Source of the DNA: Conchiformibius steedae
GTDB taxonomy: Bacteria; Pseudomonadota; Gammaproteobacteria; Burkholderiales; Neisseriaceae
Length of the DNA stretch: 64,000 bases
Assembly (NCBI RefSeq): GCF_014054725.1
Contig: NZ_CP059563.1
Location: 410,868-474,867, forward strand
Direction: 5' to 3'
Positions within the stretch are counted from its first letter, which is position 1. Each line of letters starts with the position of its first letter. Position numbers and translations under genes: made by a program. A model generated the notes under the pieces. The model had not been told where the DNA came from and did no database searches. It was given only the letters and a program-made list of their open reading frames with translations. This document shows positions 2,356 through 48,700 of this stretch, piece after piece.

Positions 2356-3899
<1,544 letters not shown>

Positions 3900-3960
3900 G
3901 AGAAAGCGGTCAAGTATCCGCACTTATCGGTAATCATGTTAGATGCAAGAAAAAGACCTT

Positions 3961-4037
<77 letters not shown>

Positions 4038-4079
4038 AACTGCTTAAAGCCGTTTGAAAGACCCAAACTGAAGAATACT

Positions 4080-4155
4080 GGGGGCATAGCTCAGTTGGTA
4101 GAGCACCTGCTTTGCAAGCAGGGGGTCATCGGTTCGATCCCGTTTGCCTCCACCA
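4080..4155 (+). tRNA. tRNA-Ala (UGC)
   Basis: 76 nt with encoded CCA. The acceptor stem GGGGGCA pairs with TGCCTCC, and the anticodon loop TTTGCAA has anticodon TGC. It is the second tRNA of the 16S-23S spacer. Confidence 0.97.
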
Positions 4156-4252
4156 AATATCAGGTATTTCATCAGATATTAAATAAAGCTTTTGCAAATA
4201 AAAGCGGATTAAGGTAAAATAGTCTGTTTTTATTTGCAAAAATAATTGCATC

Positions 4253-4263
4253 GCTCTTTAACA
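4253..4263 (+). promoter_or_regulatory. boxA site before 23S rRNA
   Basis: GCTCTTTAACA in the spacer repeats the boxA core of the operon leader, as is usual before 23S genes. The rest of the spacer, 4156-4483, shows no gene. Confidence 0.8.
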
Positions 4264-4483
4264 AATCGGAAGCCGAAATCAACAAACAAAGACAATGTTG
4301 GTTGTAAATATAAATATATTTCAACCACAGTAATTTGGGTGATGATTGTATCAATTGTTCCTGAACACAAAAGGCAGGAACAATTCACAACAAAGCAGTA
4401 AACTGTATCAAAGTAAGGTATCTGAAGTTTGTTCTGGTCGTCAACGCCAAACAAACGAAGTCAACAGGTACTTCAAATGATAG

Positions 4484-7369
<2,886 letters not shown>

Positions 7370-47278: not shown

Positions 47279-47346
47279 GGGTTTGCCCTTGTGAAAAACG
47301 GCGATTATATGTTGTTTACTATCTACTTAACAAATTTTAGACAATA

Positions 47347-47385
47347 GAAAACCAAGCGGTCAGTAAACTGACGGCTTGGTTTTTA
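47347..47385. terminator. Hairpin between DUF924 and the accessory island
   Basis: AAAACCAAGC-GGTCAGT and ACTGAC-GGCTTGGTTTTT form a long stem with T-runs on both sides. The rest of 47279-47624 holds the half REP-like repeat at 47385-47403 and otherwise no gene that I can support. Confidence 0.7.
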
Positions 47386-47624
47386 CCCACCCCTAGCCCT
47401 TAGTCTTAAACAACGGTTTTTCAAGTACTCGGTTTCCCTTTCTTCTAGCTGCATTCACAGCAACAGTTGTTAAGCCTTAAAGTTGCTTTGTCATCGCATT
47501 GCAGGTGCAACAGGCACTTTGCAAGGCTTAGCTGGTAAACAACAACAAAACAGGGTTAAATAACCCATAGAATTGAGCCATTATTAAGGCTGGCTCTACT
47601 ACCTTAGGGGGTTTTGTAAAAATT

Positions 47625-48257
47625 TTACCATGAAGCAGGGTATTCAGTTAAGCCATCTATTGAAAACCCATGATTTAACAATGCTTGCCTAATCAAAAAA
47701 GGTAAAGCAGATAAATGCTCACTATACTTATTTAAATCTTGACTAAACTCACAAATAGAAATTTCTTCAAAATAATCAATCAATTCATTCAATAAAAAAG
47801 ATTTGATAAATATCGTTTGCCATAATGCACCCTCTAAATTGTTGAAGTCTTTTGTACTAATTTTGTGTTGCCAAATTAGGAAAAACTTATTATTTCCTTG
47901 GTAGTGAATAATTACCTTATATGGTTGTTGAGATGAAAAACTTGATTTTTCTTGGAAAATTAGGCTAAAAATAATTTTACCTTCAACCTTTATAAAAATT
48001 TTCTCATCTTTATCGTCTACACCCCAGTAAAGCCGAAAGGTATTACGTCTTAATTTATGACCAAATAAATCTAACAATGGTTTAAGCTGTTGCTCTGTAG
48101 CCAGTTTCTCTCCTCTGTACCAAGCACTTACAACAGATTGCTGGGTGCGGCACTTATCAGCAATTTCTTTTTGCGTCCAACCATTATTAATTGCCAGCCT
48201 TATCAATTCACGAGTTTGTTTAAATGGCTTCTTTTTAGTTTTGGTATTTGACTCCAT
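47625..48257 (-). CDS. AT-rich HTH protein of unknown function
   Basis: 210 residues; ATG preceded by AAAGGAAAA. Residues 12-60 form an XRE-type HTH: IRLAINNGWTQKEIADKCRT, then QQSVVSAWYRGEKL and LLDLFGHKLRR. The remaining 150 residues are rich in Phe, Ile, Lys and Asn with several predicted strands (IFIKVEGKIIFSLIFQEKSS, YKVIIHYQGNNKFFLIWQHK) and no family I recognise. Base composition is far more AT-rich than the neighbours, which suggests transfer. It follows a 51-residue protein gene and a palindrome on the same strand. Confidence 0.75.
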   Translation of the reverse strand: MESNTKTKKKPFKQTRELIRLAINNGWTQKEIADKCRTQQSVVSAWYRGEKLATEQQLKPLLDLFGHKLRRNTFRLYWGVDDKDEKIFIKVEGKIIFSLIFQEKSSFSSQQPYKVIIHYQGNNKFFLIWQHKISTKDFNNLEGALWQTIFIKSFLLNELIDYFEEISICEFSQDLNKYSEHLSALPFLIRQALLNHGFSIDGLTEYPASW

Positions 48258-48280
48258 TAAATTTTCCTTTTATGTATAAC

Positions 48281-48313
48281 AGGAAGCAATATCTCTTAAA
48301 GATATTGCTTCCT
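48281..48313. promoter_or_regulatory. 14-bp perfect palindrome between two island genes
   Basis: AGGAAGCAATATCT, 5-nt loop, AGATATTGCTTCCT. No T-run follows on the minus strand, so an operator for the HTH protein or an RNA processing or stability hairpin is more likely than a terminator. Confidence 0.6.
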
Positions 48314-48324
48314 ATATTGTACAC

Positions 48325-48480
48325 TTATTTCTTTTTAGGTGGTTGATAATTAGGATTCTGTGGATTCATTTGCCATCCACGATTTCCTTGGTTTCTGGAA
48401 TAAGTTTTATTCGTTCCTGATGTTCCATGGTTAGGATTGCTAATATCGGCACGATGATTACTTTGGTTCTTGTGTTTCAT
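48325..48480 (-). CDS. 51-residue Asn/Pro-rich hydrophilic small protein
   Basis: ATG 48480 to TAA 48325, with a near-perfect ribosome site AGGAG 7 nt before the start. The product is wholly hydrophilic, without a signal or membrane part: MKHKNQSNHRADISNPNHGT near the start, and GNRGWQMNPQNPNYQPPKKK at the end, giving two copies of an N-R-x(3-6)-N-P-(N/Q) motif. Similar Asn-Pro mini-proteins occur in other proteobacteria without known function, as I recall. It is upstream of the palindrome and HTH gene and probably in the same transcript. The ribosome site makes it very likely real. Confidence 0.7.
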   Translation of the reverse strand: MKHKNQSNHRADISNPNHGTSGTNKTYSRNQGNRGWQMNPQNPNYQPPKKK

Positions 48481-48658
48481 AAGAAACTCCTAGTTGCTTG
48501 TTGGTAATGCACTCATGATATCCAATGGCATTATTCAGAACAACTGATGATTTTTTGATAAAATCTGATAATTTTTGATAATTAAATACCAAATTGATTT
48601 CAAATGGTTTATTTTTTAATTTGAAAAACTTAAAGAATAATTTTCGCCGATTTTTCAC
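48458..48658 (-). CDS. Doubtful 66-codon GTG ORF in the leader of the island transcript
   Basis: The frame GTG 48658 to 48458 encodes a basic protein (MKNRRKLFFKFFKLKNKPFE...) and overlaps the start of the small-protein gene by 23 bp. No ribosome site is present and the GTG coincides with the predicted transcript start near 48655, so translation would have to be leaderless. It is more likely a 5' untranslated leader. Confidence 0.25.
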   Translation of the reverse strand: MKNRRKLFFKFFKLKNKPFEINLVFNYQKLSDFIKKSSVVLNNAIGYHECITNKQLGVSYETQEPK

Positions 48659-48661
48659 AAT

Positions 48662-48689
48662 GCTATAATCGCCGATTCTTTTTTCACAA
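48662..48689 (-). promoter_or_regulatory. Island promoter overlapping the valS -10 box
   Basis: Minus strand: -35 TTGTGA (48689-48684), 16-bp spacer, -10 TATAGC (48667-48662). On the plus strand the same place reads TATAAT (48664-48669), a good -10 for valS with a 31-nt leader. The two promoters cannot be occupied at once. Confidence 0.5.
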
Positions 48690-48700
48690 TCTAAAAAATC

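Follow-up and report, generated by a model that had tools for sequence, protein, structure and literature searches.

A mobile 1.28-kb cassette combining a 51-residue protein, a helix-turn-helix regulator and a structured RNA: a candidate conflict system

We analyzed a compact genetic unit from Conchiformibius steedae, found on the minus strand of a 64,000-nt stretch of contig NZ_CP059563.1 (hereafter the window, meaning the whole stretch). The unit lies between a HAD/DUF924 gene and valS. It consists, in order, of an array of TATCA repeats with a promoter, a gene for a 51-residue protein, a hairpin, a gene for a 210-residue helix-turn-helix (HTH) protein and a structured RNA. This anatomy, the joint inheritance of the array with the HTH gene and the RNA, the covariation in the RNA, the exchange of the regulator's central domain and the mobile context are well supported. 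Our preferred reading, to which we give a probability of about 0.5, is a mobile, self-contained, autoregulated conflict cassette in which an HTH sensor drives expression of the 51-residue protein and the RNA.

Judged by sequence comparison, the cassette is new as a system: the HTH domain is the sole part that falls into described families in the libraries searched. We found no description of the combination in the open literature, which leaves out most subscription papers. The initial annotation had proposed an undescribed, foreign, autoregulated two-gene system. Conserved co-occurrence of the genes and an operator-like array agree with that proposal; the role it gave to a palindrome most probably does not hold, and the RNA adds a third, larger part to the two it counted.

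Composition, small protein and distribution

Both open reading frames lie where the initial annotation had placed them, and their GC contents (0.32 for the HTH gene and 0.36 for the 51-residue gene, against 0.51 for the whole window) agree with its account of an AT-rich foreign unit flanked by housekeeping genes. Its interval of 47625-48700 covers the frames and falls short of the full extent. Because a conserved structured RNA stands 3' of the HTH gene, the unit reaches about 47337 and measures about 1.28 kb (Table 1). The sister species offered no usable empty site, as valS is not adjacent to the DUF924 gene there.

Table 1. Features of the cassette and the adjoining valS gene, in window coordinates
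Feature	Position	Strand	Basis
valS	start 48701	+	
Four phased repeats TATCA-5-TATCA-5-TATCA-6-CATCA, proposed operator	48545..48580	-	conserved at HTH loci
Predicted promoter, -35 TTGTTC (48538-48543), -10 TATCAT (48515-48520)	48515..48543	-	fixed spacing across loci
51-residue hydrophilic protein	48325..48480	-	protein-level conservation across phyla
Hairpin (14-bp perfect palindrome), probable terminator or attenuator type	48281..48313	-	folding against shuffles
210-residue HTH protein	47625..48257	-	PF01381 E 1.2e-4; AlphaFold2 pLDDT 87.6; domain-wise dN/dS
HTH domain, residues 1-78	48024-48257	-	
Variable central domain, residues 79-184	47706-48023	-	
Conserved tail, residues 185-210		-	C-terminal end of HTH protein
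Structured noncoding RNA, ~270 nt	47340..47612	-	covariation, covariance model
3' terminal hairpin CCAAGCCGTCAG..CTGACCGCTTGG with T-rich tail, conserved 3' end of the RNA and terminator	47345..47384	-	15 pairs

The 51-residue protein is hydrophilic throughout, as had been noted, with abundant G, N, Q and K, and its gene has an AGGAG ribosome site. The family carries the motif NHxADxxNxNxGTSGTNxTYxxNQGNRGxQxNP, and the cross-phylum consensus, NHxADxxNxNKGTxGTNxTYxKNQGNRGKQLNPN, is almost letter-perfect; 15 residues are invariant among seven diverse members. We built a profile from seven members and searched GTDB species genomes, which gave 236 confirmed loci in Pseudomonadota, Bacteroidota, Spirochaetota, Cyanobacteria and other groups. 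The frame is therefore conserved as a protein; a lack of such conservation would have counted against the initial annotation's proposal. Thiofilum carries the motif twice within one protein. The protein had no matches in Pfam, NCBIfam, PHROG or PADLOC, and the family profile had none among PDB sequences.

Several loci vary this theme. On Vibrio plasmids (L015:3854-4567) the motif lies inside a 237-residue protein with no Pfam match, and on an Arcobacter plasmid (L013:3992-4868) a 42-residue family member is followed, one base on, by a Thg1-like (tRNA-His guanylyltransferase) protein. About nine Bacteroidota loci (L049-L088) place the small gene before an ORF of about 763 residues, a fused glycosyltransferase/radical-SAM-SPASM protein, and this pairing may be meaningful. 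A related Neisseriaceae genome (G005, L012) has a 51-residue-like stretch bearing two stop codons, possibly a decayed copy.

A direct search of genome contigs with the HTH protein gave no matches, so we reached its relatives through the 51-residue profile. An all-against-all ORF comparison around the best 80 of the 236 loci, together with the window, yielded an HTH cluster of 21 loci. The HTH gene accompanies the small gene in 20 of the best 80 loci, which answers the earlier question of whether the two co-occur elsewhere. The remaining 60 lack it and have different neighbors, the Bacteroidota ORF among them. At nearly all loci that have it, the HTH gene lies 40-250 nt downstream in the same orientation. 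The cluster spans Neisseria, SXT-type integrative and conjugative elements (ICEs) in Providencia, Kordiimonas and Marinagarivorans, and Thiofilum, Rheinheimera, Arsukibacterium, Leucothrix, Parathalassolituus, Herbaspirillum, Propionivibrio, Oleispira, Vibrio salinus, Corallococcus, a Geobacter relative and Marinobacter, in which the two genes are 1.2 kb apart.

Genome samples gave the same picture of joint inheritance. The window's genome shares its family with g10, a genus that contains Neisseria. Across 149 genomes close to the window's, the same five have both the HTH gene and a strong match to the RNA (at least 131 bits); weak matches in the remaining genomes reach at most 33 bits, many on the terminal hairpin alone. 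Four of these five carry the 51-residue gene. In the fifth (G064, L005) a stop breaks the HTH gene and the array precedes a gene for a 66-71-residue protein instead. Among 369 genomes of the class, the 51-residue gene, a full-length HTH gene and the RNA all occur in the same two.

This 66-71-residue protein (GWKxxxRKKHNILIAPNNRRVAIPSTPSD; L002:1034-1234, L005:2606-2821, L098:1492-1680) is somewhat HicA-like and has no Pfam family match. In Neisseria its gene precedes the 51-residue gene behind the same array, and in L005 it takes that gene's place. The window's genome has a related ORF elsewhere, at 43% identity.

Operator array, regulator and structured RNA

Upstream of the 51-residue gene, TATCA repeats are spaced one helical turn apart. 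We scored loci for four copies at 10-11 bp spacing and counted a score of at least 17 of 20 as positive. The array was found at 19 of the 21 HTH loci and at none of the 58 scored loci without HTH, where the maximum was 16. The association is strong (Fisher 4e-16, computed with 56 non-HTH loci); the loci are partly dependent, and collapsing them to about 15 lineages gives p near 1e-8. One of the two exceptions, Oleispira, has a TATAA version. The entire host genome has a single exact three-repeat site, the one at the 51-residue promoter, and the array pattern occurs off-target once in 1.46 Mb strand-bases of the other loci. The best -10-like hexamer falls 23 or 24 nt past the last repeat in 14 of the 17 loci scored, with one more tying at 23. 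This comparison favors a promoter beside the array and a leader of about 28 nt over the promoter proposed earlier, with its leader of about 175 nt.

The array is likely the operator of the HTH protein, and we consider it very probable that the protein binds there. The -35 box next to the array is weak, a poor match to TTGACA, and for this reason we prefer activation to repression; the protein probably activates its own operon.

Profile and structure searches place the HTH part of the regulator only, in keeping with the earlier description of a 210-residue protein with an unfamiliar C-terminal domain. Helix-turn-helix families are its sole match (PF01381 at 22.4 bits, cutoff 23), and PADLOC returned only PDC-M64B, an HTH-level match over 46 residues (E 6e-4). 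An AlphaFold2 model built from 19 sequences shows an XRE domain followed by six strands and two helices. Foldseek matched the XRE domain (probability 1.00, rmsd near 2 A, E above 0.01), and the N-terminal part is a Cro/CI-type helix-turn-helix (HTH_3/XRE). Against the PDB, Foldseek gave no matches at E 1e-3 or better, leaving the C-terminal domain without a solved relative.

The domains of this protein evolve differently. In two phage-like contigs, L107 and L108, the 51-residue proteins are identical, as are all 80 of HTH residues 1-80 (dS 0.03), and the last 26 residues share 23 (dS 0.06). The central region between them shares 61 of 114 residues at dS 1.35. Because near-identical flanks enclose a divergent center, this comparison indicates that the central part has been exchanged. 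Between the Neisseria loci L020 and L022, the HTH domain shows no amino-acid change at dS 0.39, and the central domain has dN 0.070 and dS 0.085. A protein whose operator-reading end stays conserved and whose middle evolves quickly looks like a sensor for a ligand that itself varies, and we lean towards ligand sensing by the central domain. The swapping could also reflect recombination alone.

Conservation extends about 270 nt beyond the HTH stop codon and marks a structured RNA. The consensus of 15 aligned sequences has 38 pairs, 31 with compensatory changes. Of the alignment cells, 92.6% are paired (75.6% in shuffles) and 107 are changed on both sides (34.0, sd 4.7, in shuffles); none of 500 shuffles equaled the alignment on any of five measures. 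A slid-partner control paired at most 44%, a comparison that is partly circular because the structure was derived from the same sequences. Single sequences fold at z from -2.2 (window) to -4.8. The RNA forms a single multi-branch fold with GNRA-type tetraloop variants and G-U compensatory pairs. Two further elements, a closing helix (ACCC(A)/TGGG) and a hairpin (GAGC/GCTC), appear in an alignment of nine sequences. In the terminal hairpin 98.2% of cells are paired, and 10 of the 15 pairs have changes on both sides.

A covariance model built from 14 sequences scored 152 bits on the window RNA. It also matched the remaining HTH loci with an RNA, among them the held-out L005, L109, L101, a truncated L032 and Corallococcus (E 5e-13). 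The RNA is present at 20 of the 21 HTH loci, the Geobacter relative being the only exception, and at none of the 60 loci without HTH. Rfam (release 15) gave no match at gathering score, either for the window RNA (searched at E up to 10) or for seven other loci (searched at the gathering threshold).

A promoter-like TTAACT-18-TAAAAT with TG lies within 47602-47699 of the window (minus strand) and overlaps the HTH stop codon. Several loci have TTGA-17-TAG pairs around this stop codon, a candidate separate promoter of the RNA.

Mobile setting and candidate roles

Carriers of the cassette include N. gonorrhoeae, SXT/R391-type ICEs and phage-like contigs. The N. gonorrhoeae replicon NZ_CP119142.1 (L007), 2.17 Mb long and listed as a plasmid in PLSDB, looks chromosomal by size and content. 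In the window and in Neisseria the cassette lies among housekeeping genes. In three ICEs (L018, L021 and L023) it occupies the traA-dsbC interval. In hotspot 2, an insert starts immediately behind the stop codon of traA and stops 79 bp before s054 (PMC2791158), the dsbC homologue (PMC2654960). By these published junctions the L021 insert spans 3842-5121, or 1280 bp, and has no content beyond the array, the two genes and the RNA.

In the phage-like contigs L107-L109 the cassette lies between head/packaging genes and variable cargo, with a terminase among the former in L107 (Pfam); we take the neighboring genes to be Mu-like. Scans of phage records and viral contigs for the HTH gene gave no hits, although L107-L109 carry it. 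Defense genes are frequent neighbors among the sampled loci: the Shango helicase SngC (L026, E 4e-264), type I restriction-modification methyltransferases (L025, L032), an AriA-like ATPase with an OLD TOPRIM (PARIS/OLD-like, L108), an HNH effector-like protein (L107) and AbiE (L018, L100). In this sample the neighborhood is an association and not proof.

We propose the following model. Copies of the HTH protein would sit side by side on the array, on one face of the DNA, and control their own operon, more likely as an activator. The intergenic hairpin would leave the 51-residue protein in excess over the regulator. The variable, swappable central domain would sense a ligand that varies and that most likely comes from a phage entering the cell or from a competing mobile element; ligand binding would alter the HTH protein on the array and raise transcription of the 51-residue protein and the RNA. 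These two products would act jointly to counter the invader or protect the carrier. Anti-phage or inter-element conflict is a candidate role that we rate at somewhat below even odds. A more tentative version is an RNA-containing conflict system in which the swappable sensor reads invader proteins and induces a 51-residue protein that works as a ribonucleoprotein with the ~270-nt RNA. Against a conflict role, the 51-residue family occurs in many genomes without regulator or RNA and need not be an effector; the housekeeping surroundings in the window and in Neisseria also speak against it.

The cassette shares features with several described systems. Like Cro/CI-type (XRE, PF01381) repressors and restriction-modification controller (C) proteins, it has an N-terminal HTH of that fold and a probable operator beside its own promoter in a small operon. 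Those proteins use paired palindromes, whereas here the proposed operator has four direct repeats at intervals of one helical turn; the C-terminal domain is variable with no solved relative (E <= 1e-3), and an RNA is part of the unit. The mosAT and AbiE systems use the same traA-dsbC (s054) hotspot and can lie side by side with it (PMC2654960, PMC2791158), but they have no sequence relation to it, and it comprises an RNA and a 51-residue protein rather than a nucleotidyltransferase pair. Type III toxin-antitoxin systems, retrons and reverse-transcriptase defense are likewise compact mobile units of protein and structured RNA, yet the cassette lacks a reverse transcriptase, an endoribonuclease and a tandem-repeat RNA. 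Its SXT-type hotspot-2 insert contains just the 51-residue and HTH genes and the RNA, with neither the nuclease gene of a type III system nor the reverse transcriptase of a retron. Among PADLOC defense models, the cassette proteins match none beyond HTH-level PDC-M64B.

We doubt that the unit is a regulatory or stress cassette, with a disordered, hydrophilin-like protectant, an HTH protein that reads a cell signal and an ordinary sRNA or 3' UTR element. The composition of the small protein fits a protectant, and its family is chromosomal and widespread in Bacteroidota and Spirochaetota. However, the 15 invariant residues exceed what composition requires, and the sporadic distribution, ICE and phage-like carriage and swapped central domain of the regulator argue against this role.

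An addiction cassette resembling a toxin-antitoxin system seems unlikely. Here the 51-residue protein or the RNA would be harmful, the HTH protein or the RNA would neutralize or repress it, and the carrier would be stabilized. Carriage in ICE hotspot 2, which also houses the toxin-antitoxin pair mosAT, an operon shared by a small protein and an HTH protein, and an RNA that might serve as antitoxin all fit. However, the small protein matches no toxin family and is without an HTH or RNA partner in 60 of the best 80 loci, as a type II pair would not be; its hydrophilic character and an RNA that is downstream on the same strand, not antisense, depart from type I; and an RNA without tandem repeats departs from type III.

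It is improbable that the downstream element is folded DNA serving cassette mobility (an attC- or IS200-like end) rather than RNA. The cassette is clearly mobile and the 3' end of the element coincides with its boundary in SXT-type hotspot 2, but the tetraloop variants, multi-branch fold, G-U-including compensatory changes and T-run after the last hairpin fit RNA, and the cassette has no recombinase.

Returning to the conflict reading, one 1.28-kb unit holds an RNA absent from Rfam, a tiny cross-phylum protein that neither Pfam nor NCBIfam includes, and a regulator domain without a solved relative. If that role is true, it would be a defense or addiction principle missed by present catalogues, since small size or lack of coding keeps two of its parts from being annotated. 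The evidence on the RNA, operator and domain swap makes specific, simple tests feasible.

The hairpin between the genes

The 14-bp perfect palindrome described earlier is present and folds well beyond shuffled sequences (z -7.3). Other loci mostly have hairpins that beat shuffles at the same position, with unrelated sequences (L072 -6.6, L034 -5.0, Neisseria -4.7, Thiofilum -3.8); the signal is weaker in L042, L081, L084 and L107. We read the palindrome as most probably a hairpin of terminator type and not an operator; as a terminator or attenuator it would keep regulator output below that of the 51-residue protein, which we infer to be the best account. A two-gene system whose HTH protein binds this palindrome, as first proposed from its perfect symmetry beside the HTH gene, is very improbable, as the hairpin is kept across loci but its sequence is not, whereas almost every HTH locus retains the TATCA array. 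Rfam "Plastid-psbA-3" matches to the palindrome, which occur on both strands and do not reach the gathering score, come from the inverted repeat alone.

Other loci show small ORFs in this region. We set aside a membrane-like ORF in Neisseria, which has a TTG start, crosses the hairpin and overlaps the HTH start. Vibrio salinus (L092: about 4142-4275) has an acidic 45-residue ORF with NPNN motifs between the 51-residue and HTH genes.
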